Shown piece by piece: positions 1 through 20,740 of a stretch of 20,740 nt of DNA; within the stretch, counting starts at the first letter, position 1; every line of letters begins with the position of its first letter. Source of the stretch: Porphyridium purpureum. Taxonomy: Eukaryota; Rhodophyta; Bangiophyceae; Porphyridiales; Porphyridiaceae. The position numbers and the translations under genes are program-made. The DNA lies in assembly GCA_008690995.1 (NCBI GenBank), contig VRMN01000038.1:1-20740 (forward strand). The letters are read 5' to 3'. The notes under the pieces are model-generated. The model worked only from the letters and a program-made list of their open reading frames with translations, was not told where the DNA came from and made no database searches.

Positions 1-319
1 AACCCTAGAGTAACCCTAGAGTAACCCTAGAGTAACCCTAGAGTGTAACCCTAGAGTAACCCTAGAGTAACCCTAGAGTAACCCTAGAGTGTAACCCTAG
101 AGTAACCCTAGAGTAACCCTAGAGTAACCCTAGAGTAACCCTAGAGTAACCCTAGAGTAACCCTAGAGTAACCCTAGAGTAACCCTAGAGTAACCCTAGA
201 GTAACCCTAGAGTAACCCTAGAGTAACCCTAGAGTAACCCTAGAGTAACCCTAGAGTAACCCTAGAGTAACCCTAGAGTAACCCTAGAGTAACCCTAGAG
301 TAACCCTAACCCTAACCCC
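1..319. repeat. Telomere, 11-bp variant repeat
   Basis: The tract is 27 head-to-tail units: 25 copies of AACCCTAGAGT and two 13-base variants ending in GTGT (34-46 and 80-92). It then switches to plain hexamers, AACCCT, AACCCT, AACCCC (302-319), directly against unique sequence at 320. The G-rich strand would read ACTCTAGGGTT, that is, a canonical TTAGGG-type core plus five extra bases. The C-rich strand reads left to right, so the chromosome end is at the left. The near-perfect regularity indicates recent synthesis, most simply by telomerase with a long template. The same 11-mer recurs as short seams deeper in the window, which supports it being this organism's true telomeric repeat. Confidence 0.95.
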
Positions 320-3300
320 GACAGCTCCTACTCGACCTCCGACTCTGGGGATGACTGGCTGCCCCAGCGTGAGCGAGCAGGCCAGCCATCAGATGACCAC
401 GGACAGCGGCCGCAGAGTCGCGGCGGCCTAGCACGGCCCCGGACACCGCAATATCCGTGCCCGGAGCCGCGTTGCCCGTTTGCGAGCAGCTCCATGGCCC
501 ACGTCGGCCGCCACTGGGGGCGCGAGCATCCCACGATCATGCCACCGGCGGACGTGTGGGGCGCGCTGGAACTGCGCAGAAACAAATGCGGGCTGGCGGT
601 GCCACGAACCCAGGCTGACTCGGCATGTCAGTGCGGACCATGTACGACCGCGAAGCCCAAGTGCCCAGTCTGTGACACTCGCCTCGACCTTCGGTCCTCG
701 CAGGTGCGCCACTTCTCGCGCCACTCTGCAGCGCAGGTCCGCGCCGTCCCGCCCGCGGTTCTGCGCACGCTGGGCGTTGGCCAGCGAGCGTGCGGCAAGA
801 TTTGCGAGGTCAACTCGCTGAACCACCCGCATGCCATCTCGCGATGCCTGGACCCAGTGCTTTGTGGCTCGGGCCTCACCCATGCCCAGACGCTGGCTGT
901 CCGGCGCAACCGCGCAGCAGATGACCTGACTGGGCTCGACGACGTGTTTGCGCAACTCCGCAACTCTCCCTCGGAGTTTTTCGGTGCCGCCTCCATCCAT
1001 ACACTCGTCCGTTTTGTCGATGCGGTTTTGGCAATGCAGGTCAGAACATGGAAGCGGGTGCCGCAGCGGCTCAGTGCCACGGTGGCGCTCGAGCTCGCAG
1101 CCATGCTGGAGGACTTGGCGCGGGCGCCGTCGGAACTGGAGCAAGTGCGCGCTCTGAGCCGGCTGTGGACGTTCCCGACATTGGTTCTGTGCCTGCCGCC
1201 CGGGCGACAGCCGTCCCGCGCACGAGCGGCCTTCTTGGTGGACCGACTCCACAAGTGGCGCGCGGACAGCATCACTGAGCTTGTTTCGGCCGTCCCGGTA
1301 GACGCTGCTTTGCCAACGGGTACGCTGACTCCAGACCTGCTCGCAAAGCAGGTTCAGAAGCACATGCGCGCGCACCACATTGGGGCTGCCGCGCGTCTTC
1401 TCGAGTCCAGCGGCATTCATCAGGTCACTGATGACGTGCTTGCCAAGCTGCGCGCGCTGCATCCGTCAGCCGCCGACACCAGCTCACTGCGCCACGATGC
1501 GCACGGGCCTGGTCAAGACTCCGCATCCGCAGCTGACGTTCCTTGGGAGGGCGACGACATTCGTCAGCTCATCCTCGCCATTCCCCACACCAGCGGGAGC
1601 GGTCCGTCCCGCTGGTCGGCAAGTCTGCTGCACCAAGTGCTTCAGACCGAGGTGGCCGGCTCCAAGGTCCAAGTGGCTCTGCTGCGAGTGTCGCAGGCGC
1701 TCGTTCGTCGTGGCTTCGAGGGCCAGGCCGGAGCGCTCTGGAACCACGCCCGCCTTATTCCTTTGCGCAAGAAGGATGGCGGCGTGCGACCCATCGCGGT
1801 GGGTGAGGTGCTTCGTCGCGCGCTCGGCAAGCTTGCGCTCCGCTGCCTAGGTCAAGCTGCCGTGGACAGCCTGCTTCCGCTGCAGTTCGGCGTAGGCCGC
1901 AAGTCGGGCCTCGAGGCCGCCATCATGGGTACCCGCATGGCCGTGCTCGAGCCAACGCAGTCCGAGCCCGTAGCGGCCCTGAAAGTTGACCTGGCGAACG
2001 CTTTCAACACGGTCAGTCGCCACACGCTGCTCCGCTTGGTGCACGCGCGCTTTCCCGAGTTGTGGCCGCTGGTGCGGTCAACTTACTCAACACCTTCTCC
2101 TCTTCGGCTCGGGACCCAAATGCTGTACAGCGCTCGGGGCGTGCAGCAAGGGGACCCGCTTGGCCCGCTCTTGTTTTCGTTGGTCCTGCAAAACGTCTTG
2201 GCCCAGTTCTCGGCGCCGCAGGTGCACCAAGTATGGTACTTGGACGACGGCTGTGTCGTCGGCACGCCAGCGCACTTGGCTGCATTCCTTCTGGCCTTCG
2301 AGCACGACGCGCAGGCCCATGGCCTGGCGATCAATCGCGCAAAGACCGAGTTTATCTTGACGGGCACGATGACGCGCAGCGATGTGCCGGACGGCCTGCA
2401 AGACTTGCTCGTCACTTCGTGGTCCGAGGCGGAGCTTCTCGGTGTGCCCCTGGACGCGACCGGTGCAGGCCGTGCACTGGCGCCCATCGCGCGTCTCTCT
2501 CGCAAGGTCCTCGACCTGGCTCGCACCGTGTCCGAGTTGCCGTGCTCCGAAGAGGCGTTTCACCTCCTCCGCGGCAGCGTGGGCCCGCGCCGCCTCGCGC
2601 ACCTGACGCGCACCATGCCGGCCGATGTGATCCGTGCGGAGCTCGCTTCCTTTGACGAAGGCTGGCGGCACTGCGTCGCACGCACAGTCGGGACTGCGCC
2701 GGCGGACTGCCTCGACGGCACCGACGTCCGACCCGAGTGGCGCTTGCCCTTGTCAATGGGGGGCCTCGGCCTGACCGCGCTCACCGACGTTGCTCCGTTC
2801 GCGTTCGCGGCAGGCAGCCGTGCAGCCGCGCGTGCCTTGGACCAGGTACCCGATGATGTGGTGCCACCCACTTTGGTGCGCTGGGATGCTCGGTTCCACA
2901 GCGACCAGGCGGCTCTGGCTTGTCTCCCAGCGCCGGTCGCCGCTGACGATGCGCCTCCCGGAACACTCCTGTCGTCCCAGACGCAGAGTTGCCGTCGCTT
3001 TTTCCGCAAAATGCAGACAGACTGGCTCTCTGACCAAGGCACCACGACGTGGGAGTTCCACCGAAGGCACGGCATCTCCGCTCCGTTTGCGCTGGCTTGG
3101 CTGAGCATGCCGAGCGCTATACCTCTGGCAGGTCACGCGACTCGGATGCGGCCGCACGTGTGGCAAGCTGCGGTGCGCCACATGCTCGGGCTCCCGACGC
3201 GCCTGGCCCAGTTTGCTTCGCAGACTCGGTGCCCGGCCATTTCGGCCACGACCGGTGCCATTTGTGGCGAGCGCCTGGACGCTCTGGGCCGGCACGCGCT

Positions 3301-3919
3301 CGCTTGTGTGTTCGGGCCCTCGCGCTACGGGCGCCACGAACGCGTGGCAGAAGCGCTCCGGGACTTTGCCCACGCGGCGGGTCTGGTGACCGTGCGCGAG
3401 CCCGCGGTGTGCGACACCAGCACGGCTCGGCGGCCGTACGACGTACTGATTGGCACGACCGGCGTCGACGTCTCGGTCGTCCTGCCGGACAAGGCAGGTG
3501 CGCGGCGCACGCCCGGCTCCGCCATTCGTATCAAGACTGCGGCCAAGCTGTCGGCCTACACCTTCGCTCGTGTCGGCTCGTCCGCCCGCTGGCAGTCAGC
3601 GCCACGGCTCACTCTTGCCGCGGTAGCTCCGACCGCTCCCGCTGGTGCTGGACATCTTTATGCCTGGGCGACGATGCCCGACCTTCCTGGCCTTCGCTCG
3701 CGGGTCATTCCAGATGGCCAAGCAGCCGTGGCGCGGCCAAGCCTCGATGATTCTCCATCGGCCCTTTCCCCTGGCTGTCTCGGTCGGCAGCCGAGGCCGT
3801 GTGCTTCTGCATTCGGCACCCGCCATCCCTGTGGCGGGACTGCAATGGCTCTTCGGGCCTCCGCTCCTGGCGCCCACACCATGTCTCTCGACATTGGCCA
3901 CTGTCCCGGACAGCGGTAA
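320..3919 (+). CDS. LINE protein: C2H2 finger, reverse transcriptase, CCHC, RLE (5' partial)
   Basis: This protein makes the element's cDNA at a nicked target. The frame is open from the telomere junction. The first ATG (494) lies inside a C2H2 zinc finger (CPEPRC at 458-475, then H-x3-H ending HP), so the true start is lost or upstream. Numbered from that ATG, the next block is a Cys-rich segment ACQCGPC (622-642). The RT begins at about residue 421 (LIPLRKKDGGVRPI). Motif A is VDLANAF (D499), then QQGDPLGPLLFSL (residue 551 on), then YLDDG (D584, D585). The CCHC knuckle has Cys codons at 3230, 3263 and 3305 and His at 3293. The endonuclease follows as RRPYDVLI...DVSV (D983, D992). After about 3540-3625 the protein stops matching copy B, whose C-terminus is instead matched by another frame (from 3625: LVLDIFMPGRRCPTF, later PLAVSV). 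The last roughly 100 residues are therefore probably out of frame and the protein inactive. Confidence 0.88.
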   Translation, partial: DSSYSTSDSGDDWLPQRERAGQPSDDHGQRPQSRGGLARPRTPQYPCPEPRCPFASSSMAHVGRHWGREHPTIMPPADVWGALELRRNKCGLAVPRTQADSACQCGPCTTAKPKCPVCDTRLDLRSSQVRHFSRHSAAQVRAVPPAVLRTLGVGQRACGKICEVNSLNHPHAISRCLDPVLCGSGLTHAQTLAVRRNRAADDLTGLDDVFAQLRNSPSEFFGAASIHTLVRFVDAVLAMQVRTWKRVPQRLSATVALELAAMLEDLARAPSELEQVRALSRLWTFPTLVLCLPPGRQPSRARAAFLVDRLHKWRADSITELVSAVPVDAALPTGTLTPDLLAKQVQKHMRAHHIGAAARLLESSGIHQVTDDVLAKLRALHPSAADTSSLRHDAHGPGQDSASAADVPWEGDDIRQLILAIPHTSGSGPSRWSASLLHQVLQTEVAGSKVQVALLRVSQALVRRGFEGQAGALWNHARLIPLRKKDGGVRPIAVGEVLRRALGKLALRCLGQAAVDSLLPLQFGVGRKSGLEAAIMGTRMAVLEPTQSEPVAALKVDLANAFNTVSRHTLLRLVHARFPELWPLVRSTYSTPSPLRLGTQMLYSARGVQQGDPLGPLLFSLVLQNVLAQFSAPQVHQVWYLDDGCVVGTPAHLAAFLLAFEHDAQAHGLAINRAKTEFILTGTMTRSDVPDGLQDLLVTSWSEAELLGVPLDATGAGRALAPIARLSRKVLDLARTVSELPCSEEAFHLLRGSVGPRRLAHLTRTMPADVIRAELASFDEGWRHCVARTVGTAPADCLDGTDVRPEWRLPLSMGGLGLTALTDVAPFAFAAGSRAAARALDQVPDDVVPPTLVRWDARFHSDQAALACLPAPVAADDAPPGTLLSSQTQSCRRFFRKMQTDWLSDQGTTTWEFHRRHGISAPFALAWLSMPSAIPLAGHATRMRPHVWQAAVRHMLGLPTRLAQFASQTRCPAISATTGAICGERLDALGRHALACVFGPSRYGRHERVAEALRDFAHAAGLVTVREPAVCDTSTARRPYDVLIGTTGVDVSVVLPDKAGARRTPGSAIRIKTAAKLSAYTFARVGSSARWQSAPRLTLAAVAPTAPAGAGHLYAWATMPDLPGLRSRVIPDGQAAVARPSLDDSPSALSPGCLGRQPRPCASAFGTRHPCGGTAMALRASAPGAHTMSLDIGHCPGQR

Positions 3920-3970
3920 TGCATTAGATTTTGCGGTTTATTTTTAGGTTAAGGATCCGACAGTAAAATC
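320..3970 (+). mobile_element. RLE-type non-LTR retrotransposon, copy A, 5'-truncated at telomere
   Basis: This LINE has a zinc finger, reverse transcriptase, CCHC knuckle and restriction-like endonuclease, the layout of the R2/CRE/NeSL/Utopia group. Its 5' end is missing: the reading frame is already open at the telomere junction. The 3' end is not sharply defined. After the stop at 3919 there are about 50 AT-rich bases, then GTAACCAAGAGAGT (3971-3984), which resembles a degraded telomeric repeat, then a minisatellite. Protein comparison by eye with copies B and D shows clear homology but a different subfamily. Confidence 0.9.
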
Positions 3971-3980
3971 GTAACCAAGA

Positions 3981-4272
3981 GAGTGTTCTGTGGTCTCCTG
4001 TAGTGTTCTGTGGTCTCCAGTAGTGTCCAGCGGCTTTTCGTAGTGTTCTGTGGTCTTCTGTAGTGTTCTGTGGTCTCCTGTAGTGTTCTGTGGTCTCCAG
4101 TAGTGTCCAGCGGCTTTTCGTAGTGTTCTGTGGTCTTCTGTAGTGTTCTGTGGTCTCCTGTAGTGTTCTGTGGTCTCCAGTAGTGTCCAGCGGCTTTTCG
4201 TAGTGTTCTGTGGTCTTCTGTAGTGTTCTGTGGTCTCCTGTAGTGTTCTGTGGTCTCCTGTAGTGTTCAGTA
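3981..4272. repeat. 20-bp minisatellite with 80-bp higher-order unit
   Basis: Strict 20-base units begin at 3981 and run to 4260, with a partial unit after. Four unit types alternate: A (ending CTCCTG), B (ending CTCCAG), C (TAGTGTCCAGCGGCTTTTCG) and D (ending CTTCTG). The order ABCD occurs three times (3981-4060, 4061-4140, 4141-4220), followed by A, A. The nearly identical 80-bp blocks show recent amplification by unequal exchange. The antisense frame open through this array is only a reading of the repeat. Confidence 0.95.
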
Positions 4273-4299
4273 AGTGACAATCAATTAAAAACACCCGCT
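4273..4299. repeat. Left terminal inverted repeat
   Basis: This 27-base end is the exact reverse complement of 5627-5653. It sits directly after the minisatellite fragment TAGTGTTCAGTA. Confidence 0.93.
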
Positions 4300-4741
4300 G
4301 TTTTGCATATTTTCTATGAAAATAGGTAATTTTAGAATAAAATTGAAGAAGGTCGACCTTTCGGTGACCGTGCGAGCGTCCAAACGATTAAAAACAGTGC
4401 AGTCAAACACACATTCCAGGGGTCATAGAGCATGGACATGAGCGCGCGGCGCGGTTTCATCAGGAGCACAGCAATGTCTTTCAGTGGACAAGAGCCCAGC
4501 ATGATTGGTGGCGTGGTTACGGAGGAATGCATGATGCGGGTGATCACGAACTGACCATTGAGTTTTTGCTCCGTTGCATTAGTACAAAGGTATTTGAATA
4601 GCCTCAAAACGGAAAGCAAATGGAGGCCCGATCAGAATGACGCAAGAATAACATCCAAACCGCACCTAAAGCTTGAAAATGTCCCAAAGCAAGGCCTTCT
4701 TTTGCTGCGCTTTTTAACTTGCACAGAACTCTAATCAGCAT

Positions 4742-5372
4742 GTGCCGAGCCAATTTCAGCGCAACGCACCAGACTTGGAACCAGAAATAAGCGCACGTGC
4801 GAGACGAAGACGACCATACCAGCTTTGGAGAACTGTCATGGACACACACAAAATGAATGAGTTGTTTTTACTGCTGAAAACAGAGAAAAACTTGCAAGTG
4901 TTATTTACGGACCTAAAAGGCTCGAATTGGAGGGTTCTGATGGTGTCCTCTTCTCTTAGGGAGGGTCAGAGCTTATCCCAGTCAACCATTTCATCTGTAC
5001 GTTTGGTGCACACAGCTTGATAACTTGGGAGTGCCAACCACACCCGAAAATTTAGACTTCTCCTTCGCATGCGACTATCGTATCCCTATTGAGAGGGGCG
5101 CAAGAAGCGTGAACATGTTGGACAGATTTCGGGTGAATATGAGAGCCGTAAAAAAGCTCAGTTGCTTCATGTTTATGTTGCTCTATGTAGCTTGCCTCAA
5201 GGCAGAGCAAACCGGGTACCGATTGAAAAGCAAATATGTGGAAGCTAGAGATAGTCCTGCGCTCCCGCGAGACTTGGATTCAATTGACCATGTTCGGAGA
5301 CATGTAATAGGCCACGTTTACGGTGAATTCCAGCAGTTTTATAGCGTGAAAGAGCTGCGAACGGCAGATTAG
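4742..5372 (+). pseudogene. Possible transposase remnant inside the TIR element
   Basis: Two open stretches in different frames (4742-5020, 92 residues; 5025-5372, 115 residues) follow each other on the plus strand inside the TIR element. The first contains TVMDTHKMNELFLLLK, which loosely recalls the VMDNFFTS...L segment of piggyBac-type transposases. The second contains SVNMLDRFRVNMRAVKKL followed by a hydrophobic stretch, which loosely recalls the later GVDxxDQ...KKW segment. The order is right, but each match is weak and no complete catalytic domain is visible. PiggyBac elements insert at TTAA, which the ends here do not show. The second frame opens with TTG rather than ATG. This could equally be noncoding. 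Confidence 0.25.
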
Positions 5373-5626
5373 GACGCCCTGGCGAAAATGGAGGGCTCCT
5401 GCGTCACAGGCTCGCGTGACAGTGTGTCAAAGGGACTCGTTGGAAAGGTCTTGGGCCAAGGAAGGACGTGGCGCTTTCAGAACTCGCTTCTACCCTTCAC
5501 TGCTGCGGTAAACTCTCTGAACTTGCTCTGTTTTTAATCGTTTGTCACTTTCCCTTCGCGCGTAAAATCTCTACTTCAACGAGTTTATACTAAATTTACC
5601 ATGTTTTGTTATAAAAGGTAACGACT

Positions 5627-5653
5627 AGCGGGTGTTTTTAATTGATTGTCACT
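5627..5653. repeat. Right terminal inverted repeat
   Basis: This is the exact reverse complement of 4273-4299. The minisatellite resumes in phase a few bases later at 5659. Confidence 0.93.
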
Positions 5654-6015
5654 TGCTGTAGTGTTCTGTGGTCTCCTGTAGTGTTCTGTGGTCTCCTGTA
5701 GTGTTCTGTGGTCTCCTGTAGTGTTCTGTGATCTCCAGTAGTGTCCAGCGGCTTTTTGTAATGTTCTGTGGCTTTCAGTAGTGTTCTGTGGCTTTCAGTG
5801 GTGTTCTGTGGTCTTCTGTAGTGTTCTGTGGCTTTCGGTAGTGTTCTGTGGCTTTCAGTAGTGTTCTCTGGTCTTCTGTAGTGTTCTGTGGTCTTCCGCA
5901 GTGTTCACAGGTCTTCAGTAGTGTTCAGTGGTGTTCAGCAGTGTTCAGTGGTGTTCAGCAGTGTTCAGCAGTGTTCAGCAGTGTTCAGTGGTGTTCAGCA
6001 GTGTTCTATGAGCTC
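5654..6015. repeat. Continuation of the 20-bp minisatellite, diverging into 10-bp units
   Basis: The array restarts at 5659 with three A-type units, then B-, C- and D-like units, keeping a strict 20-base period to about 6010. Units become progressively different: CTTTCAG endings first, then (C/T)AGTGTTCAG half-units of 10 bases from about 5919. Beyond 6016 there are only degenerate traces (TGCTCACTCG-like) to about 6090. Together with 3981-4272 this was one array before the TIR element inserted. Confidence 0.92.
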
Positions 6016-8633: not shown

Positions 8634-11600
8634 TTACGACAAGACAGAGTCCATCTGCGCTAACGCCTTCATTGCGTTTGTTATCCCTGCAGTGTCAACC
8701 TCTACAAGCCACTTAAAATAAGCATCCAGGGCAAGATGAGGATACTGCCGATGGCGATGAGCCAAATACAGATGCTCTATTCGTGCTTTGAGAAGGCCTG
8801 GACGCTGAATCCCAGTGCTTGATTGCGCTCGCGTCAGAGACGCGTGCAACTCCTTGTCGATGAAGACACCGGCAGTCCAATGATTGGGAGCTAGGCACGC
8901 CACACAAAAGAGTCCACTCGAAGGGGCTCTGGGAGGTATATGCAATCTGATATACGCATGAGCAGTGTGCTTGTGCATGTTCCCAATCTTGCCACACTGC
9001 ATGCAAGTCACAGGCCGATAGCAACTACCGGAGCACGCTGCTAAACCACAGAATGGACAGCGCTCCACAGCCGTGGACCATATCCGCTGCCATCCCTTAC
9101 TCGTCGCACAAACCACGGCTAATGATACAGAACGCACACCTTCCGGTGCGTGTACTCGTGCCCTTTTCAACGAACGCACACCTTCCGTTGCGTCCTCCCG
9201 TGACCCGTTCAGCCCGTGTACACTGCTAAGGTCTGCTTGCAGAAGCGTCATAAAAGGACGCTCTGAGTTCGAGATGCTCGCCGTTAATTGCTCGTCGCGC
9301 GTAGCCGTGTGCACTTTGCGAACCGGAGTCATCTGCACATTCTCAGAGTTGGATACATTCGGCAGGCTGCTTTCACTTGACACAAGACTTGAATACCTGT
9401 CCGCACGCTCGATGCACAATTTCACTAGCTGCTCACGAATTACAGCGTTCGGCCTGCTTCGGCATTCGTCGTAAAACTTTTCCACAGCTTGCATCGAGTA
9501 CATGGGGTGTGTCAAGCACGCCGGTCGATGCACATCTTGCGCAATAGTGCTCCTCTGCAGTGCGCTGGCTACGTTCGGGTCAAACCAGAAAAAGCACTCT
9601 GGCGTATGCGAGAGACTTGTCCGCCGGCCGGTACGGCCCCACGCTTGGACCAACTGCGCAATCGAGAATGTAGCATAAAGCACTGCGACTACGCAAGTAT
9701 TTTCGAGGTTTAGGGCTAATCCGACGGTGGACGTTCCGACGATGACTGTGCATAATTTGGCTCTCTCACGCGCGACGCTTTCAGTATCTGCTGTGATCAT
9801 ACCAATTCTGTCGCCCAGCTGGGGGAAATTATCCACAAGCCGCAAATACTCATCTTCGACCAGTTTTTTGGTTGGCACAACAATGAGAACTCTTGTTCCC
9901 TCCACTGAAGCCTTTTCCACGCGCACGTGCAGGGCAAGCCTTGACTCATCGTTCAGTGGGGACACAGACAACTTGGAGATCGGAGGCAGAACCTCAGAGT
10001 CTGTTACAAATTGCGGTTCTGGAGACCACAGAACTTTCGCAACATAGTCAGCTACGTCCATCGTCAACGTGGCACTCAAGTATACGCGCTGAATTCCAGC
10101 AAGGCGCATACCAAGCAGTCCTGCCTGCATCGACGCGCGAAAGCTCGTATGCTCGCAAACAATGTGAGCCTCATCAACTACTGCAAGAATGACTCTTGCC
10201 ACAATCTTTTCCAGCACACTCAGTACATTTCTACCCGTCTGAACTTGATCGAAAGACAAGACCACAATACCACCCCGATGCGCGGCGCTGCCAGCACGCA
10301 GATCTTCGATATCGAAGCATTCAATACCACAAGATCTTGCCTGCGCGATAGCTGCGTCACTTGCAGCACGCATGGGTGTCAATACAAGAACAATGCGGCC
10401 CACGCGTTCAGCTAGACGGCCCGCACACAGAAAAGAGGCACTCTTGCCGGCACCGCAGCGCAGCTGGGCTGCTGTATCATGTCCTTCCCAGACAGAACGA
10501 AGCAGCTGCTCTTGACCCTCTGTCTGAAATGCTGCATCAATACCGAACACACTTTGCAGAGCCTTGTGTGGGGTACCAAGATCTGGAACTGCTCGAACCA
10601 CCTCTGCGAAACACATGTTCTGAAGCTCCAAAGGGAGACGCTCGTCTTCGATACCAACTAAAGTCAGCCACGCATTGCGCGTGTCTCTTTCGAACCAGAG
10701 GCACTCGTCAACATTCAGAGCCAAATTGTACCATACTTCGTCTGTAGAAACGGTGTGTCCTAACTTCAGAGCGAGCGCCTTCTGAGCTTCGCTGTGAAGC
10801 GCCATGGTGTCAAGCCCAAGGACGTCTGCGAATGCCGCTGGTTCGCGCTTCAGGACGTGCGATGCTAGCTTGCGAAATTCTCCAACCGTCATTGGCACCC
10901 CGGTAAGTGCAAAGAGCGTTTTTTCCTGAGCTTTGCGCCCCATCATGTCCGAGGCTTGCTCAGACACATCTACATCTTTGCTCACTTGCGTAGCTGACGC
11001 AAAATTCAGTGGGGTGATGAATTCCAAATGCTCCTTTTCACAGTGGCGCAGGAAGAAATCCGCCGTCCAATGCAAGATCACGAACAAATCAGATACCGCC
11101 GTCGTCGGCAACCGTTCCACAAGCGGTACTCCAAATGCTTTGTGCCTGTTTTTCACCACCACTTCCACAACACTGACGACGTTTTCACCCAAGTTTTTGA
11201 GCGAATGCCCTTGATGTCTGCTCGAAAGAACAATTCCCTGCTGAGAAGATGATGACCGCAGAGGCATGCACGCTGCTTGTAGTGCGAGAAGCGAGCATAT
11301 ACTGAGCTCATTTCTAATCTCGCGCGAGGCACCGCAAACTTTTTGCGCGACCTCTGATGCCGTCACACGTTTAATCCCGCGCGACCGTGCCTTGCAATAC
11401 AAGTATCCTTGAATAACATTTTCCACTTGACCGCCGTCAAGATGAATACCCAGAGCGCCGTCCATCTCAGGAAACAATTTGGCCAGAATGTCCCGCGCTC
11501 TATGCACGCACCTGTAGTAAAGAACACCGAATACGGACGGGAGAACCGGTACTCCGCTTGCACGGTGCTGTAAGAAATACCTTCCACTGTCATTCCCGGT

Positions 11601-12839
11601 ATCCAAACTTGTATCTGTCCGCACAATCAGTAGCCACTCGGCGTGATCGTCACCGCACGGCTTTGACGCGCACAGAATGCTCTGCGTCATGTACAGAGGG
11701 CCACTTAGCCGAGACCCGTTCAGAGCGAGTAGATCAAAACCGCGATCCGCGACAAGCTGGAATGCTTGACTCTTCTTGTACAACTCTGTCACTGCTGTGG
11801 CTCGCAACATCCACAACTGATAGCTTGACAGCTTCGCCAGCTTGTAAAGCGAGTTGAGACCAAGGCGGCCACACGAGTCTTTATGCAAAGCATGCGACCG
11901 GAGAAACTCAATCGCACGAAAGCGTTTTGTCCGGCCATCCGGACAATCCTCCAAGCCGTTCCGCACGATAAGCGCTTGCACCGCGTGCGCGTCGCTTTCG
12001 TCTCCGGTCGGATTATTTGCTCTGTACTCCTCCGCAAAGGTTTCAAATGACTTGTTGAGCGCGTGCAGCGCGTAAAACTCAACGACCTGAGTGAAAGTCT
12101 GTAGCGCGTTTGAAATTGTGCTCTTCTCCAGCGCGGGTAGTAAACGATACTTGAAGATATCATCAGTATATTCAATCGTACTTTTCCCCTGTATCGGTAG
12201 TCTCAGCACGTCGGCACGTGTTTTCAACACTTGATTGATTGAATACCGGGCAATGTTCAACCACGACTTCACGGCCGCACGCGCACAGTCTGTCACATCG
12301 CCAACCTGCCTTGAAAACGCATCCTGCATGTCCGCCTCGGATTCAAACCATCGTAGCTTGACGATGGCCTCTCCTGTCGCAGTTCCACACAGCACCCGCA
12401 TGCCCACCTCGCTCTCACCAGCACTTCGGTTTGCGTCTTCCATTTCTTGCGTCACGGACTGCAGCGAAGAATGCGTAAGCGTTTCTCTATTCGCCGTGTG
12501 TAATACCGCATAGACCAGCCGAGTCTGCGCGGTCGCTGCGGTCCTTTCGACACCGTACTGGGTACAATAAGCTTGAAATGTTTTCAAAAACGCCTCTTCC
12601 AAACCGTCCGCCTTGACTTTGTGTACCCGTGTTATGTGTCGTTTGAGAGCCTTCTTAGCCTTTCTGCTTTGTCCATTGTCGGGCTCGCTGTTTTTCGGAA
12701 ATCGTTTTGCGAGAGAGCATTGAGGGCACACTAAGCCCCACACTAACTCGTCAAGTTGGACACACTTCTGCTCGTGGAGGCGGCAATCGCTGGCACGAAC
12801 AAAAACGGCCGCGCATCCCTTGGAACAAGCAAATACCAT
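8634..12839 (-). CDS. Subtelomeric RecQ-like SF2 helicase with zinc fingers
   Basis: This uninterrupted 1401-residue frame encodes an ATP-dependent DNA helicase of the RecQ type. At the N-terminus is a C2HC finger (C5, C9, H22, C26), then a second finger (C38, C41, H68, H73). Residues about 100-740 form a large unrecognised region. A RecQ-like motif 0 (FGIDAAFQTEGQ) leads into the helicase core: Walker A RCGAGKS (K799), motif Ia LTPMRAASD, motif II DEAH (D889-H892), motif III YLSATL, motif IV VLIVVPTKK, motif V VGTSTVGLALNLEN and motif VI QAWGRTGRR (from Q1065). The tail is Cys-rich (CPFCGLAACSGSC, CMQCGKIG, CVACLAPNHW), consistent with zinc binding. All ATPase motifs look usable. Multi-domain helicases at this location are known in fungi (telomere-linked helicases) and in yeast Y' elements. 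A role in end maintenance or recombination is inferred from family and location. The gene reads toward the telomere. No intron is needed. Confidence 0.88.
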   Translation of the reverse strand: MVFACSKGCAAVFVRASDCRLHEQKCVQLDELVWGLVCPQCSLAKRFPKNSEPDNGQSRKAKKALKRHITRVHKVKADGLEEAFLKTFQAYCTQYGVERTAATAQTRLVYAVLHTANRETLTHSSLQSVTQEMEDANRSAGESEVGMRVLCGTATGEAIVKLRWFESEADMQDAFSRQVGDVTDCARAAVKSWLNIARYSINQVLKTRADVLRLPIQGKSTIEYTDDIFKYRLLPALEKSTISNALQTFTQVVEFYALHALNKSFETFAEEYRANNPTGDESDAHAVQALIVRNGLEDCPDGRTKRFRAIEFLRSHALHKDSCGRLGLNSLYKLAKLSSYQLWMLRATAVTELYKKSQAFQLVADRGFDLLALNGSRLSGPLYMTQSILCASKPCGDDHAEWLLIVRTDTSLDTGNDSGRYFLQHRASGVPVLPSVFGVLYYRCVHRARDILAKLFPEMDGALGIHLDGGQVENVIQGYLYCKARSRGIKRVTASEVAQKVCGASREIRNELSICSLLALQAACMPLRSSSSQQGIVLSSRHQGHSLKNLGENVVSVVEVVVKNRHKAFGVPLVERLPTTAVSDLFVILHWTADFFLRHCEKEHLEFITPLNFASATQVSKDVDVSEQASDMMGRKAQEKTLFALTGVPMTVGEFRKLASHVLKREPAAFADVLGLDTMALHSEAQKALALKLGHTVSTDEVWYNLALNVDECLWFERDTRNAWLTLVGIEDERLPLELQNMCFAEVVRAVPDLGTPHKALQSVFGIDAAFQTEGQEQLLRSVWEGHDTAAQLRCGAGKSASFLCAGRLAERVGRIVLVLTPMRAASDAAIAQARSCGIECFDIEDLRAGSAAHRGGIVVLSFDQVQTGRNVLSVLEKIVARVILAVVDEAHIVCEHTSFRASMQAGLLGMRLAGIQRVYLSATLTMDVADYVAKVLWSPEPQFVTDSEVLPPISKLSVSPLNDESRLALHVRVEKASVEGTRVLIVVPTKKLVEDEYLRLVDNFPQLGDRIGMITADTESVARERAKLCTVIVGTSTVGLALNLENTCVVAVLYATFSIAQLVQAWGRTGRRTSLSHTPECFFWFDPNVASALQRSTIAQDVHRPACLTHPMYSMQAVEKFYDECRSRPNAVIREQLVKLCIERADRYSSLVSSESSLPNVSNSENVQMTPVRKVHTATRDEQLTASISNSERPFMTLLQADLSSVHGLNGSREDATEGVRSLKRARVHAPEGVRSVSLAVVCATSKGWQRIWSTAVERCPFCGLAACSGSCYRPVTCMQCGKIGNMHKHTAHAYIRLHIPPRAPSSGLFCVACLAPNHWTAGVFIDKELHASLTRAQSSTGIQRPGLLKARIEHLYLAHRHRQYPHLALDAYFKWLVEVDTAGITNAMKALAQMDSVLS

Positions 12840-14200: not shown

Positions 14201-16579
14201 GCTTCCCTAAGCCGTGGGACGCGCAGGCGGTGCGCAAGTCCATTCTGGCCATTCCGCACACCAGCGGGTGCGGACCGTCGCGGTGGTCCATAGGCGTGCT
14301 GCAGCAGGTCATCCGCACGCCCGTGGCGGGTGACACGGCGCTCGGGGCCGTGGCTCTCGCGTTCAAGCGCATCGCCAGTGTTGGTCTGCATCCGCAAGCT
14401 GGCGCGCTGTGGAGCCACGCACGCCTCATCCCGCTCAAGAAGAAGGACGGCGGCGTCCGACCGATTGCAGTGGGCGAGCTGCTGCGGCGCGTGCTGGGCA
14501 AGCTGGTGCTGGCACACCTGGGCAGCGACGCAGCCGAGTCGCTCCGGCCCGACCAGTACGGCGTGGGACGCCCGGCCGGGCTCGAAGGCGCGGTGCTGGG
14601 GACGCGCCTTGCCGCGATGGAGTCCAGGCGCAGCCGTGCTGCTCGTCGACATTTGCGAAAGACGCGTTAGCTGCGTCGACCGGTACGCTGGTACGCATCG
14701 TGCAGGGCCGTTTCCCCGCGCTGTGGCCGCTGGTGCGCTCAACGTACGCGCATCCGGCTCCGCTGCGAGTGGGCGCCCATGTGCTGGCCAGCGCGTGCGG
14801 CGTGCAGCAGGGCGACCCGCTGGGGCCCTTGCTGTTCTCGCTGGTGCTGCACAAGGTGCTGGCAGACACCGAGTCGCCGGGTCTGTCGTCGTTCTGGTAC
14901 TTGGACGACGGCAGCATTGTGGGGCCGCTCGCGCAGCTGGAAGGCTTCCTGGACGCCTTTTCGAGCGACGCGGCCGCGTACGGCATGCGCGTGAACCGCA
15001 CCAAGACGCAGCTGGTGCTTCCGCCAGGAACGCAACCGGCAGTCGTGCCCGCGGGGCTCGCCGACCTGCCGCGTCTGGCGTGGGACCAAGCACAGCTGCT
15101 CGGTGTGCCGCTCGACTTTACCGGCAGTGGCGAGTCGCTCGTGCCGATCACCAACGCGAGCGCGCAGGTGCTCCAGCTGGCGGAGCAGGTGGCCAAGCTC
15201 AGCCACCCCGAAGAGGCGTTCTACCTCCTGCGGGGCAGCGTCGGGCCAAAGCGCCTGATGCACCTGGCGCGCACCATGCCTCCGCCCGTCGTGACTCGCA
15301 TCTTTGCCGAGTTTGACCGCGCGTGGCGCAGCATTGTCGCGCGCGCGCTGGGTGTGATGGCACACGAGGTCGGCGAGCCGTGCAAGGCCGAGTGGCGGCT
15401 GCCGTGCTCGCTTGGCGGCTTGGGACTGACCGCAGTGGCAGACATTGCGCCGTTTGCGTTTGCCGCCGGCAGTCGTGCTGCCGCGCGCGTGGTGGACAAC
15501 CCGCCCGCACGCGTGTACCCTCCGTCGCTCGCGCAGTGGTGGCGAAGGTTTGACGGAGACGCACACGCCGTGGCGCAGTGGCGCCTGGAGCCAGACGAAG
15601 ATGTGGAAGCCCTGCTGGACTCGCAGGCACGTGGGAGCCGTCGCTTTTATCGACAATGGTGCTCAGATTGGTCCCACGCGCCGGCCCCGTCCGACCCAGA
15701 CTTTCACCGACGTCGCAGCGTCAGCTCGCCGCACGCGCTGGCGTGGCTCGGGATGCCGTCTGCCACGCAGCTGGCCGCTTTTTGCGGAAGTCGCCGCTGA
15801 GTCTGGTCGCTGGCGCGTGGCTGTGCGGCACATGCTGGGCCATCTGTGAGCCGCGCAGCGCGTCGTATGGCGCTATCGGGCGGTTCGGATGCCGTCTGCG
15901 AGACCAGGCTGGTTCGGCACGGTCACCCACGCTCAAAGTGCCATCTCCGGGCCGTCGCTGGTACGGTCGGCGCGCACGCTGGTGGTCGACGCCGGCGGCA
16001 GCATTTGCGCGCCGCTGAAGCGCCAGTGGAGCGCGAGGTGCTAACTTCCGGCGCGGCGGACTTCACGCGGCCGGGTGACCAAATGGACAGCACGTGGGTC
16101 GATGTGGCAGTGGTGGTGCCGACCGCACCGGCACCAGGCGGTCCGACGGAGCGGCACTCGCGGCAGCGGCGCGTCGCAAGCAGGCCTCCTTCCAGGCTGC
16201 TGCGCGCACTGGCGACGCTGCTGGCGTGTCGTTCCAGGCGGTCATTCTGGACACGTACGGCCGGCGCGAACAGTGTGGAGCCGCGTTTCTGGAGACTCTG
16301 GTGGCGGCGTACATGCGGCACCGTGGAGTAAGCCAGATGCTGGCAAGCACGGCGCTCCACCGGTCGCTGTCGCTCGCGGTATACCGCTCGGTGGCGGCGG
16401 CGGTGCTTCTACGGCACCCGGGCCCGACTCTGTCAGTTGCCTCGCAGCACTGGCTGGAGACGGGCAGGCGCCTCTTTGTAGGCGAGGTACTCTCGGAATC
16501 GGAAGCAGAGTCGCACTGACTTTGCTGATACATAGGTAAAGTACTTAGGCCCTCTAGATTTATAATGTAAAACGATTTC
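14201..16579 (+). mobile_element. RLE-type non-LTR retrotransposon, copy B, 5'-truncated and decayed
   Basis: Homology to LINE copy A starts just before the RT (KSILAIPHTSGCGPSRW, compare LILAIPHTSGSGPSRW in A), so the N-terminal fingers are missing. The 3' untranslated region (16520-16579) ends GATTTC and runs directly into AGAGTAACCCC. The element is in the same orientation as the other LINE copies. Confidence 0.9.
14203..16519 (+). pseudogene. Broken LINE reverse transcriptase/endonuclease ORF
   Basis: The RT is recognisable across several frames. The first frame (to about 14640) has LIPLKKKDGGVRPIAVGELL. The next carries motif A as AVLLVD. The third, to 15800, has QQGDPLGPLLFSLVL and WYLDDGSIVG (YLDD at 14898-14909), followed by a long conserved post-RT region (EEAFYLLRGSVGPKRLMHL, WRLPCSLGGLGLTA, ALAWLGMP). 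The endonuclease core FTRPGD...WVDVAVV is near 16062-16105. The C-terminus, SLSLAVYRSVAAAVLLRHPG, lies in a further frame ending at 16519. At least four frame changes separate these pieces, two of them within motif A. The copy cannot make an active enzyme but has decayed mainly by small insertions and deletions. Confidence 0.88.
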
Positions 16580-16590
16580 AGAGTAACCCC
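16580..16590. repeat. Telomeric seam between LINE B and LINE C
   Basis: AGAGTAACCCC is the part of the telomeric repeat immediately after the LINE B 3' end. It ends AACCCC, as the telomere does against LINE A at 314-319. Confidence 0.75.
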
Positions 16591-16899
16591 CTCACCACAT
16601 TACGGCAGCGTGGATTAACGCCAGCAAAATTATTGCTTCTTTCCGGGCTCGCGCGACCTTTGCACGCGATGCGCCAGGTCCGCCCCGCTTGGGCGCTGAC
16701 CGTCCTTTCGCGGGCTGTGTCCCTCGCTGTGTACCGCGCCGCCGCACATGGCATTCTTTTGCGGTACCCGGCGGGACACTCGGCCCTCACTTCGAGCGGG
16801 CTGCGCTGGCTCCCCCATGTGACGAAAGCGCTCGGCTCCTCCGAACCGAGCACCCCAAGTCACGAGGCCGGCGTCCTCCATTTTGGCCCCGTGAGCTGA
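16591..16899 (+). pseudogene. C-terminal LINE protein fragment
   Basis: The open frame includes SRAVSLAVYRAAAHGILLRYPAG, which matches the C-terminus of copy B (HRSLSLAVYRSVAAAVLLRHPG). It ends at 16899. No start codon, RT or endonuclease is present. The frame is open from the seam itself, as expected for a 5'-truncated copy. Confidence 0.75.
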
Positions 16900-16972
16900 T
16901 CCCAATTCAGCTCCAACCACGCTGAGTCCCCAACCCTCTGAATAAGTTAAATTTTGACAATAAACACAATTC
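16591..16972 (+). mobile_element. LINE fragment, copy C (3' end only)
   Basis: This 382-bp remnant begins directly after a telomeric seam and ends in ACAATTC followed by telomeric AGAGTAACCCTAGAGTA. Only the last part of the protein and the 3' untranslated region remain. The 3' tail CAACCCTCTGAATAAG... (16931-16972) recurs almost identically at 18539-18580. The extreme 5' truncation is typical of incomplete target-primed reverse transcription. Confidence 0.82.
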
Positions 16973-16989
16973 AGAGTAACCCTAGAGTA
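16973..16989. repeat. Telomeric seam, Tc1 target
   Basis: AGAGTAACCCTAGAGTA is one and a half telomeric units directly after the copy C 3' end. The final TA (16988-16989) is the dinucleotide next to the left end of the Tc1 element. Confidence 0.88.
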
Positions 16990-17015
16990 CACTCCTGGCC
17001 AAGATGGTTGTCCCA
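16990..17015 (+). repeat. Tc1 left terminal inverted repeat
   Basis: Reads CACTCCTGGCCAAG and on to GTTGTCCCA. It differs from the reverse complement of the right end at three positions, including base 3 (CAC against the usual CAG). Confidence 0.9.
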
Positions 17016-17252
17016 GGTGCAATTTCAAGGTCTGAACTCCAGTTTTATAGTAAAAACGAGCGTTTTCATATAAAATCAATGTTTATACCTTTTTTAACAT
17101 ATTTTTGTTCCTCAGGTCAGAGGTAAGCGCGCGCTTTTGCGGGACCCCGTGAGGCCATGGAGGGGTTCAAGACATGTGCAAGAAGACCAGCGCATCTACT
17201 GCACTCGGGCATACGATCGCGACCAAGTCCAGCAACCGCAAGCATCGGAAAT

Positions 17253-18287
17253 ATGGCACCACGGCTCTCCGACTTTGAGAAAGGCCAGATTGACGCTCTG
17301 CACCGGCTCTGTCTGACGCCGCGGGCCATTGCAGCACGCCTTCGTCCGCGACCAGACAAGACCCGACCATCGTACAAGACTGTGGAGCGATTTCTGAAGA
17401 ATCGAGGCAAGAAAAGGGTTTTCAAGAAGCCCGGACCGGCGCGGACAATATCGCCGAAATTGGAGCGTCGCCTGATTCGGCACGTCATTACGGATAGATT
17501 GACGTCTGCACAGGCAGTGACGGAGCTGCAGCTTGCGTGCAGTGCGAGAACTGTTCGTCGTATCCTGCAGAGATCACCAGAGGTTCGTATTATCGCACAG
17601 AGGCGAAAGTTCTTCATTTCGGAAAAGAACCGAGTCAAGCGGCTTGCATTTGCTCGAGAATACGTCCACAAGCCGCTATCGTTTTGGAAGAATGTCATCT
17701 TCTCGGATGAAAAGATCTTTCGGCTGGACGGGCCGCACGGGTACAACAAGACTTATCAGCGCACGCGAGGCCCTGAGCCCGCGCCAACCATGCGTCGCCA
17801 CAGTGGCGGAGGATCCGCGATGTTTTGGGGTGCCATGTCGTGGCACGGACTGAGTACGTTGCATCGTGTTCAAGGCTCGCTGAATGCCGAGCGATATCGG
17901 CAGGTTATGCTGAACGTCATGATGCCCTGGGCACTGGAACTGCCCTGGCGCCTTGATCAGCCGGATTGTCCATTCATATTTCAGCAAGATAATGCGCCCG
18001 GACATGCAGCGCTGAGCACGCGCGAGCTGTTTGACACGGTCGGAATCGCACTACTTGATTGGCCAGCGCGGTCGCCGGACTTGAATCCAGTTGAGAATCT
18101 GTGGGCGATCGTTTCTCGCCGTGTGCATTGGCAGGGACGCCAGTTTATGCGCCTCGATGACATGCTTCCAGTTATCTATGACTGCTGGCGAACGGAAGCG
18201 CCAAAGTATGTTGAGGCACTTTTCGAGAGCATGCCCCGTCGCCTGCAAGCTTGCATCGACGCCGGTGGCCGTCAAACCAAGTACTAG
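17253..18287 (+). CDS. Tc1-family transposase (DD34E)
   Basis: This protein cuts and reinserts the element at TA sites. I chose ATG 17253 (MAPRLSDFEKGQIDAL) because this is how Tc1-type proteins usually begin and it gives 344 residues, the usual size. An in-frame ATG at 17157 would add 32 residues without a family match. The N-terminal helix-turn-helix region recognises the element ends (RAIAARLRPRPDKTRPSYKT, then a basic GKKRVFKKPGPA). The catalytic residues are D152 (FSDEKIFRLDG), D246 (FQQDNAPGH) and E281 (SPDLNPVENLW), with 34 residues between the last two. There is no stop or frameshift, so it may still be active or was recently. It is less GC-rich than the surrounding LINEs. Confidence 0.95.
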   Translation: MAPRLSDFEKGQIDALHRLCLTPRAIAARLRPRPDKTRPSYKTVERFLKNRGKKRVFKKPGPARTISPKLERRLIRHVITDRLTSAQAVTELQLACSARTVRRILQRSPEVRIIAQRRKFFISEKNRVKRLAFAREYVHKPLSFWKNVIFSDEKIFRLDGPHGYNKTYQRTRGPEPAPTMRRHSGGGSAMFWGAMSWHGLSTLHRVQGSLNAERYRQVMLNVMMPWALELPWRLDQPDCPFIFQQDNAPGHAALSTRELFDTVGIALLDWPARSPDLNPVENLWAIVSRRVHWQGRQFMRLDDMLPVIYDCWRTEAPKYVEALFESMPRRLQACIDAGGRQTKY

Positions 18288-18512
18288 TTTCGTTACTACA
18301 GTTAAATCTCTTCTCATAAGCGTGTTTGTCCTCATCAACCTGTTTTATTGTTTTTCTCTTTTTCGGCACTTCTCACACCTGTTGTTTTGTTCTACGATAC
18401 CTTTGGACGCCCCTACCCATTTTCCGTGCCGCTGATTCTTTTCGTGCCATCAAAACAGACGACAACCTAGTCGAAAAGCCGAGTTATTCACAAAAAACTT
18501 CATTTAATCCTG

Positions 18513-18538
18513 TGGGACAACTAACTTGGCCAGGACTG
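18513..18538 (-). repeat. Tc1 right terminal inverted repeat
   Basis: Read inward from 18538 it begins CAGTCCTGGCCAAG, the usual CAGT start of Tc1 ends, and continues to GTTGTCCCA. Confidence 0.9.
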
Positions 18539-18580
18539 CAACCCTCTGAATAAGTTAAATTTTAACAATAAACTCGATTC
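18539..18580 (+). mobile_element. Minimal LINE 3' tail (35-42 bp)
   Basis: The 42 bases match the copy C tail (16931-16972) at 39 positions and end GATTC against telomeric AGAGTACC. Either this is a LINE insertion truncated to its last 35 bases and joined to TAACCCT, or it begins at CAACCCT within the LINE untranslated region. The Tc1 right end touches it directly. Confidence 0.75.
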
Positions 18581-18603
18581 AGAGTACCTAGGTAACCCTA
18601 GAG
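18581..18603. repeat. Telomeric seam before LINE D
   Basis: AGAGTACC followed by TAGGTAACCCTAGAG is degenerate telomeric repeat in the usual orientation. It contains CCTAGGTAACCCTAGA, also present at 13587-13602. Confidence 0.8.
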
Positions 18604-18742
18604 CGTACAGAGCCACTTTTAGACCCGGACGGAGCACACGGGCTCAGCGCTGCAGTCGCATTCGTTCCCGGAGTTGAGCAGCTTGGCTCGCCGGAGACCG
18701 TGACGACGGTGACGCGGTGACGCCGCGACCGGTGACGAGGCC

Positions 18743-19536
18743 ATGCCGTCAGCTGGGTCAGACTCTCAAGGCGAACCGGACGGAGGACAGCTCGTCGACG
18801 CTGCAGGCGGCTCTGCTCAGCCAGATGCCGCCCTTTCACGCAGCGCCGAGTCTGTGGTCGGCGATGCAGAGGCTTCAGATGCCCCCGGACGCAAGAATGA
18901 TGCTGCTCCGGGGATGGCCCACGCTAAGCGACCCGCCGCTGCCGCGTTATCGCGCACGGTGTCTCCGTCCCGGGCTACTCTGCCCAAGCGTTCCCGGGCG
19001 GCTGCAGAAGTGCCTAGCGTGACGGCGGAAGCAGCGCAGCAAGAGTCTGCAGCAGACAGAGGCGTCGCGCAGGCGCAGCAGAACAGTGCGGGTCTGAGCA
19101 CTGCCGCCTGTCTGTTGAATGACGCTGTGCAGCGCTGCAGTCGCCGGAGCTGACGCCGGCGGCTCAGGCCGTTCAGAAGCTCGGACGGGGCGCTGCGCGT
19201 TCCGGCCTGCTTGTTCCGAGCGGCGCGCGGGAGGCCAGAGTATGGTGCGCCACGCAACCAGGTGCCACCGTGGCGCGCATCCGCACGGTCTCGACAGACG
19301 CGCTTGCCGAGGCAGGACTCGCTGCAGACCCGTGTGGAGCATGGCATGCGCTCAGCGGCTCTGCGCACTCTCGGGACCAGCACCGCGCACGCTGCATGCA
19401 GTGCAAGACGGCCCACGCCCACCGTTCCGCAGTGGGCCGTGCCAGCGGCCAAGAGTTTGCCGCTCCCGCACTTCCGGAGGTCCACGCTGTGACTCCGGCT
19501 CCCTCGGCGGCTTCGCCCTTCGGGGCTCATGAGTGA
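18743..19536 (+). pseudogene. LINE ORF1, low-complexity protein, one frameshift
   Basis: ATG 18743 opens a frame rich in Ala, Ser, Gly and Pro with basic patches (AHAKRPAAAALSRT, LPKRSRAAAE) that stops at 19153. From about 19123 a second frame continues the same character (SPELTPAAQAVQKLGRGAAR) with WCATQPGATVARIR and CMQCKTAHAHR, ending at the TGA at 19534-19536. A single frame change at about 19123-19150 separates the halves; it could be decay or an assembly error. The composition suggests a disordered nucleic-acid-binding ORF1, as in many LINEs, but no domain is recognised. It ends overlapping the ORF2 start by eight bases (ATGAGTGA). Confidence 0.6.
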
Positions 19537-20740
19537 GACACTTTCTGACTCGTGGGAAGGGCCCGGTCCGCGCGGCGCAAGTCTTCTAGCCTCAAGTGAG
19601 GAAAGCGACGCGGAATGGGCTCCCGCACGCCCCCGCGCTCGTCGAGCGTCTGGGCGAGGCCGGCTACAAAGTCGGCCGGGTGGACCAGTGGAACTGCGTG
19701 AGCGTGCTGGTCCTGCGCGAGAGAGTGCGGTGGTGGATGCGCACATCTCCAGCTCTAGGGTGCTGGCAGCCACGCACGCGCCAGTGGCATCTCCGCACAG
19801 TGTCGCAGACTCGGCAGACGGTCGCGCCACACGTCGGTCCGCACGACGACCGCGCCAGCGTGCGGGGCCTGCCGCACACATAGCGGTCAGGGATGCCGTG
19901 CTTGGCCACAGCGCATCTGTTCGCAGCTCTGCTCGCATGCTCCGTCCGGCGGGCTTTGACATTTCGCGACGCAGCGTGGCTCGGATGGCGCAGCTCGAAG
20001 CGCCGCACGCATGTCCGGCCGCCGAGTGCATGCGACGCTACCAGAGTGCGGCTCAGCTGGGCAAGCACTGGCGTGCGGCACATCCGACGGAGCCAGCGAG
20101 TGCCGAGCTTCTGTCCAGCCTGCACTTGAGGCGAAACGCGTGCGGATGGGCGGTGCGCGACGTGCAGCCCCAAGACGCGTGCCAGTGTCCAGCGTGCCGA
20201 GCGCTGTGGAACGCGTGCCCCGTGGCAGGCTGTGAGGCCTCGTGGGCCGAGCCAGCTGGGCTGCTGCGGCACTTGGCGGGCAGTAATCACTCGGCTGAAA
20301 CACTTGCCGCAGTGCCACCGGACGCGCTCAGAGCGGTTGGGCTGGCACGCCGGGCGTTTGGCTGCCGATGTCTTTGCTGCCTGCGCTGTCCGATGCGCCA
20401 CCAGCGCAGTCGATGCACCGGATCCTGCGCGTTGTGCCGAGGCATTTGAAGGGCAGAAGGGTGGTCGCGTGCAGTCTGCACAGCGAGCGGGCGCAAGCGG
20501 AGCATGCGATGACACTCGCAGTGGCTCCGACACGGCCGCAGACACGCATGTGTTGACGGCGCCTCCTGCCGCTGCGCATCCGCCGTCGCCGCTGCTCGAC
20601 GCCTCCATACTCACCATTCTTCAAACGGTAGATTGGGTGCTGGGGCTGCGCGTGCGCACGTGGAAGCGCGTACCGGCAAAGTTTGCGCCGGACGTTGCGC
20701 TCGAGTTCAGCAGCATGCTCACGGAGCTGGCCGAAGCCGC
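19529..20740 (+). pseudogene. LINE ORF2, N-terminal part with zinc fingers, one frameshift
   Basis: ATG 19529 opens ORF2. An acidic/Arg-rich stretch leads to a C2H2 finger at 20012-20083 (CPAAEC...LGKHWRAAHP). A second Cys/His block follows at 20180-20290 (CQCPAC, ACPVAGC, LLRHLAGSNH). The same order is seen in copy A (LELRRNKCGLAV, ACQCGPC, AVPPAVLRTLG against LHLRRNACGWAV, ACQCPAC, AVPPDALRAVG). The first frame stops at 20449, but homology to copy A continues in another frame from about 20367 (DVFAACAV) to SPLLDASILTILQTVDWVLG and LRVRTWKRVP at the window edge. One frame change therefore lies near 20360. The fingers probably direct target or RNA binding. Confidence 0.75.

Follow-up and report, generated by a model that had tools for sequence, protein, structure and literature searches.

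The Window and Its Telomere Repeat

The stretch of DNA analyzed here (the window) is an entire contig of 20,740 bases, labelled C4 in the genome assembly of the red alga Porphyridium purpureum. Genome-wide searches covered this assembly, which holds 22,164,627 bases in 46 contigs. The window contains several long interspersed nuclear elements (LINEs), among them copies A, B, and C, which lie next to telomeric and subtelomeric DNA (Table 1). Together with their relatives elsewhere in the genome they form at least four families (A, B, C, and E) and represent telomere-targeted LINEs in a red alga, MoTeR-like in the way they work. They are very probably telomere-specific non-long terminal repeat (non-LTR) retrotransposons whose reverse transcription is primed on the telomeric G-rich strand, after which the chromosome end is capped or joined.

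The telomere unit is the 11-mer AACCCTAGAGT, accompanied by some AACCCT units, and it is present at the start of the window and at the end of contig C29. An additional long array was found at C3:6454-6905, away from the end of that contig. This 11-mer is a candidate for the telomere sequence of a red alga; telomere data for red algae are mostly missing or fragmentary according to the available text of a 2020 review (PMC7046594). In all three arrays the units and GT inserts follow one order (4-5 units, GT, 4 units, GT, 15-19 units), and this suggests copying between ends through recombination, or an assembly effect.

Table 1. Features of the window (contig C4) and, in the last row, a sequence block located on other contigs.
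Feature	Position	Strand	Remarks
Terminal telomere	1..319	+	Mostly AACCCTAGAGT 11-mers, few AACCCT 6-mers, GT inserts
LINE copy A, 5'-truncated	320..3976	+	Open reading frame (ORF) 494-3919; 3' end ..AAAATCGTAACC
Subtelomeric DNA	3977..6007	+	Two 20-mer satellite blocks (3982-4270; about 5656-6007)
Subtelomeric DEAD-type helicase ORF	8634..12839	-	1401 amino acids
LINE copy B, frame-broken, 5'-truncated	14213..16579	+	3' end ..GTAAAACGATTTC; start by eye
Telomere seed AGAGTAACCC	16580..16589	+	Separates copies B and C
LINE copy C, 5'-truncated 3' end	16590..16972	+	383 bases; ends ..AATAAACACAATTC
Telomere seed AGAGTAACCCTAGAGTA	16973..16989	+
Tc1/mariner-like DNA transposon	16990..18538	+	Transposase ORF 17157-18287; ends by eye
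Short C-type tail	18541..18580	+	..AATAAACTCGATTC
Degenerate telomere seed AGAGTACCTAGGTAACCCTAGAG	18581..18603	+
Further B-family LINE, 5' part	18604..20740	+	ORF 19529-20449; cut by contig end
AGAGTAACCCTAGAGTAAC block, 228 bases	L144, C3:128047-128296; L147, C45:17057-17284; C30:1771-1998		Three places only

Junctions of the 3' Tails With the Telomere

Three junctions in the window were claimed by the sequence-only reading to lie at a single register, and all proved to read exactly as stated: TTTC/AGAGTAACCCC (tail ending at 16579), ATTC/AGAGTAACCCTAGAGTA (16972), and ATTC/AGAGTACC (18580), the slash marking the end of the element. Across the genome, tails were sought with the element 3' tails alone, allowing up to three mismatches, which avoids selecting on the junction. 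This search found 33 B, 19 C, and 9 A tails, and the reversed control patterns returned 0 each. The motif AGAGTAACCC follows immediately after 30/33 B tails, 16/19 C tails, and 2/9 A tails. For B and C combined, 46/52 junctions are exact (88%), above the 80% telomeric continuation at one register that had been proposed as support for targeting. When the imprecise A family is included, the figure is 48/61 (79%).

Four of the six non-exact B and C tails are in register, as mutated or stub forms, and two carry indels. The three B tails continue after the final C with AGTGTAACCC, AGAGCGCG, and AAAGTAATCC, each keeping the register. One C tail, the short tail of the window, continues in register with AGAGTACCTAGG, and the two with indels read ATTC/CAGGTAACC and ATT/GGTAACC. 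Genome-wide, the plain motif CAGAGTAACCC has 57 occurrences, versus 6 for its reversed control. Element tails precede 51 of these sites (30 B, 17 C, 2 E, and 2 A; one of the C tails is too diverged for the tail-only pattern), and the remainder comprise 5 unrelated interior sites and a second seed unit at C33. Three E copies, detected through AGAGT patterns and not by the tail-only search, match the same register. The 3' ends of B, C, and E adjoin the telomere at one register, T/AGAGTAACCCT on the C-rich strand, and the A family ends in ..TCGTAACC followed by a blurred AGAGT.

This constancy disposes of the notion that the elements are passive residents, purged from elsewhere and lacking any telomere targeting: a mariner element and satellite also sit in this subtelomeric window, but passive accumulation is contradicted by the register data, as it cannot yield one register of an 11-base unit in 46/52 copies, and was rejected as having practically no chance of being correct.

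Two interior sites were also noted. At C22:642280-642304, deep inside a large contig, there is a diverged C-type tail with CAGAGTAACCCTA, which is an old internal copy or a trace of a former chromosome end. At C45:611919-611933 (L148) an interior AGAGTAACCCTAGAG is preceded by ..TTTGATTCA, possibly an old junction.

Independence of the Insertions

Downstream context was defined as the first 12 letters past the strict telomere tract. By this measure the exact junctions collapse to 34 contexts (B from 30 to 22, C from 17 to 11, and E from 2 to 1). Many copies are subtelomeric duplicates, and the contexts at C4:16579 and C34:1203, at the least, are probably a single event. The contexts comprise other LINE copies, the 20-mer satellite, the helicase region, the mariner element, and DNA of no identified kind. 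Since they are so diverse, the telomere seed is what they have in common.

Strict seeds measure 10-48 bases in the B, C, and E contexts, 10 being the search minimum, and a tract on C8 continues beyond an interruption to reach 112 bases. Elements were found in head-to-tail arrays with such short interstitial telomere tracts between them. At the far edge the seeds are spread unevenly over 10/11 phases (32 seeds; 2/34 were left out, their tract being interrupted), and 23/32 edges fall directly after AGAG or after AAC, AACC, or AACCC. By reading, truncated elements adjoin the telomere directly or at most 6 letters away at nine points. The elements combine 5' truncation with a constant 3' end, family A being less constant. 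Target-primed reverse transcription followed by imprecise completion or telomerase capping leaves such a pattern, with the 3' end fixed and the 5' side loose.

It might be argued that a few old insertions were multiplied by recombination in telomere seeds and by subtelomeric duplication. Identical contexts do recur (one B context is present 6 times), the helicase has four full-length copies that are 100% identical, and C25 and C13 carry A copies that are identical in their upstream 1,326 bases. For MoTeR, the available text of PMC7367193 also describes break-induced rearrangement at interstitial telomeres. However, 34 contexts are left after collapse, and there are several families with about nine 5' truncation points, which makes this explanation unlikely.

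Placement and Orientation

Distance and orientation were scored on the ten tail-bearing contigs longer than 200 kb, which hold 29 A, B, and C tails; the other 32/61 tails are on contigs of up to 200 kb, outside the distance scoring. Within the scored set, 24/29 tails lie no more than 30 kb from a contig end, a zone that makes up 3.7% of the sequence (the chance fraction). The earlier claim that every insertion has its 5' side toward the chromosome end stands for 22/24 of these near-end tails and fails as a rule for all insertions.

Element Structure and Encoded Proteins

Copy A had been taken as a full element, and it is instead 5'-truncated: its homologues on C25, C43, and C13 extend at least 1,326 bases further upstream. 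Open frames of 1,408 codons, measured from stop to stop, were found on C13 and C43. The ORF of copy A carries zinc-finger-like, reverse transcriptase (RT), and restriction-like endonuclease (RLE)-like motifs, and its C-terminus diverges from the C13 copy as though frameshifted. Identity to A is 45-52% for B and C and, in pieces, 36-58% for E.

A Pfam scan of copy A recognized the RT domain as RVT_1 (70.8 bits; cut-off 29.6), and YLDD and QGDP are invariant across 6 aligned rows. The closest sequence relatives of the RT in PDB are R2 elements, and R2 and L1 were the only LINE matches in that search. A pattern scan found C2H2-like and CCHC-like motifs at the N-terminus, and C2H2-like zinc-finger motifs are also present in ORF 19529-20449 of the further B-family LINE. 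The order of RLE-like motifs is kept in A and C, in the series C-X10-C-X8/9-H-X3/4-C-X8-RH(E/A)-X19-E-X10/12-RPxD-X8-D; B has a partial series and the full expression was unmatched. The published consensus, as given in the available text of PMC12857005, is C-X1-3-C-X7-8-H-X3-4-C-X9-10-RHD/N-X19-33-E-X9-21-R/KPD-X12-14-D/E. The R2/CRE-like label given by the sequence-only reading is plausible at the level of RLE-type LINEs, the putative nuclease being read from a motif series with unusual spacings.

By eye, all four families end in similar bases ([GA]TAAA..CGATTC; in A, TCGTAACC), and the rest of the tails show no obvious alignment between families. These alike ends on otherwise unalignable tails suggest a 3' signal that may be recognized by the element protein. 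The tails end in GATTTC, ATTC, or GTAACC, with no poly(A).

A Model for Insertion and Its Alternatives

Taken together, orientation and register place the start of complementary DNA (cDNA) synthesis on the G-rich strand at ..GGGTTACTCT-3', with extension outward. In the preferred model, a protein-RNA complex would prime reverse transcription on the telomeric G-strand ending ..GGGTTACTCT-3'-OH (ACTCT-3'). The primer 3' end could be a nick made by the putative RLE or a natural 3' overhang; the register data fit both endonuclease cleavage and priming by the telomeric 3' end. Synthesis would then proceed outward, often halting early, and the new end would be capped by telomerase or joined to a distal telomere. 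In keeping with a role of telomerase, a TERT RNA-binding domain was found with identical scores at two places in the genome, C24:255105-255533 and C44:30388-30816, representing a duplicated gene or a duplicated contig. At the start of the window the telomere array meets the truncated 5' end of copy A through a C/CC overlap, which looks like a truncated cDNA with a telomere cap. The short seeds favor insertion at short ends, or else the loss of long interstitial tracts; such tracts break in Magnaporthe, according to the available text of PMC7367193.

Several observations weigh against this model. Regarding placement, four tails on C43 (4225151-4254065, or 4.225-4.254 Mb) form an interior block on one strand. 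C43 is the largest contig seen, and the block is perhaps a chromosome fusion or a misjoined contig. The tail at C22:642280 does not fit an outward subtelomeric placement, the tails at C11:1840160 and C40:22150 point inward, and among the best candidates C4 and C29 are the sole contig ends with long terminal arrays. Regarding the junctions, the A family joins imprecisely. Of its nine tails, 2 are exact, 1 has AGAG only, and 2 continue otherwise; the remaining 4, which include two duplicates, show added or altered letters ahead of AGAGT or inside it. Moreover, the final GTAACC of A could be read as telomere in another register. The seed edges are blurred by flank letters that match telomere by chance, and recombination within telomere seeds could create new contexts without new insertions. 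Regarding the nuclease, the spacings of the A and C series fall outside the consensus in the available text of PMC12857005, the Pfam scan of the 5'-truncated copy A detected RVT_1 only and no nuclease domain, and an AlphaFold model of copy A with 6 rows was too poor to use (predicted local distance difference test, pLDDT, 36.9). For these three reasons the RLE is only putative.

A further point of this kind is that the element RNA itself could end in AGAGT, making the constant junction inheritable. Under this explanation, RNA with a short telomeric tail (AGAGT..) from the source copy anneals to the G-overhang, and pairing rather than cleavage sets the register. It agrees with telomere targeting and differs on the cause of the register. 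AGAGTAACCC does follow almost every B and C copy, and a copy at C25:26755 adjoins non-telomeric DNA yet retains AGAG. On the other hand, the B, C, and E tails are unlike except for their terminal motif and still share the register, the C-type copy at C33:3487 is without CAGA, and seed contents differ, with 6-mers and 11-mers in varying order. An inherited junction is thus possible, though doubtful.

The register may also have been set by telomerase. If the LINEs prime on the 3' end left at the end of the telomerase template (..ACTCT-3'), a nuclease would be dispensable, the register would equal the template boundary, and the elements would help to heal very short ends. This proposal is improbable. 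The healing of very short ends draws on a size contrast, strict seeds of 10-48 bases versus about 319 in the terminal array of the window. Moreover, a candidate telomerase RNA template with this exact boundary, AGAGTAACCCTAGAGTAAC, comprises 19 telomeric bases within an interior block; the template search covered one phase of the repeat only. With three genome places (Table 1) the block is no repeat family, and the copy on C30 is likely a duplicate of that on C45. Its conserved end is probably an LTR-like insertion edge rather than an RNA polymerase III stop. Part of the block (L144:68-295, minus strand) folds less stably than its shuffles (z +1.8), and an Rfam search of the block returned only matches far below the gathering score. 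Since its flank, TGTAAAAGGATGTTTA/AGAGT, resembles a B tail, the block is as likely a fossil LINE junction as a telomerase RNA template.

Comparison With Known Elements

The comparisons below draw on the available text of the cited reports. The parallel with MoTeR made by the sequence-only reading is apt as a way of working, with telomere insertion, direction, arrays, and truncation in common. MoTeR1 and MoTeR2 of Magnaporthe oryzae are RLE-type LINEs that reside in telomeres with the 5' end toward the chromosome end, in head-to-tail arrays with short telomere tracts between copies and with 5' truncations (PMC7367193). They differ in their host, a fungus with TTAGGG repeats, whereas here the host is a red alga with an 11-base repeat. 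In addition, the MoTeR 5' end has TTCGGG(TTTGGG)n, and inspection of two B-family starts (C34 and C4) revealed no run of this kind. The 5' edge of copy B (about 14,213, by eye) has no obvious telomeric character.

FoTeR of Fusarium oxysporum is similar in its C2H2 fingers, RT, RLE (putative in the algal elements), telomere flanks, and frequent truncation, and it is co-located with subtelomeric helicases (PMC12857005). FoTeR was placed by a tree in the MoTeR1/Cnl1/SLACS/CRE clade (PMC12857005), whereas the algal elements were compared by features and differ in the spacings of their RLE-like motifs. The location of the helicase-like ORF in the window parallels that of fungal telomere-linked helicases. 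Across the genome this ORF gives 13 matches, one being a fragment of 45 residues; they lie on contigs C2, C4, C5, C13, C22, C25, C33, C37, C40, C41, and C44, all of which also bear tails. A phmmer search of PDB with the helicase gave no match.

SART1 and TRAS1 of Bombyx mori are likewise LINEs with a single insertion position in the telomere unit (PMC7265360). They are R1-type, with an apurinic-type endonuclease (PMC4640811, PMC10088271) and poly(A) (PMC7265360). Neither R1-clade feature was found here, as the scan of the 5'-truncated copy A gave RVT_1 only and the tails are not poly(A). R2 elements are the best PDB relatives of the RT and share the zinc-finger-like motifs and the RLE-like series. 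The target of R2 is the 28S ribosomal RNA genes, whereas the elements described here target telomeres. By description, GilM and GilT of the protist Giardia and Zepp of the green alga Chlorella are also alike in being retrotransposons associated with telomeres (PMC10088271).

Implications of the Algal Elements

Telomere-specific LINEs with an RLE have been described chiefly from fungi in the available text of the literature surveyed. No report of the algal elements was found in that text, including PMC10250338, PMC7046594, PMC10088271, PMC1955436, PMC10767889, and PMC9498494; most subscription journals and Repbase lay outside the search, and a record there is possible. The telomere habit is known from some fungi and insects and is found here in a new branch of life. 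That a red alga has it in four families, which share a 3' motif and of which B, C, and E keep to one register of an 11-base repeat, suggests that the lifestyle dates back further, or emerged more often, than the record shows. Moreover, the long, uneven repeat gives the register with single-base precision, something that a repeat of 6 bases hardly permits. Because the register can be read in this way, the choice between cutting and an end left by telomerase becomes directly testable.

Other Observations

The Tc1/mariner-like element sits between two C-type tails. On C34 the same passage from tail to mariner start is found, with a second tail at equal distance. Elsewhere in the assembly, phycobilisome linkers were found at ten loci, and the translation of one linker shows 127/127 identical residues with chain b8 (LRC2) of 6kgx, an entry from Porphyridium purpureum.

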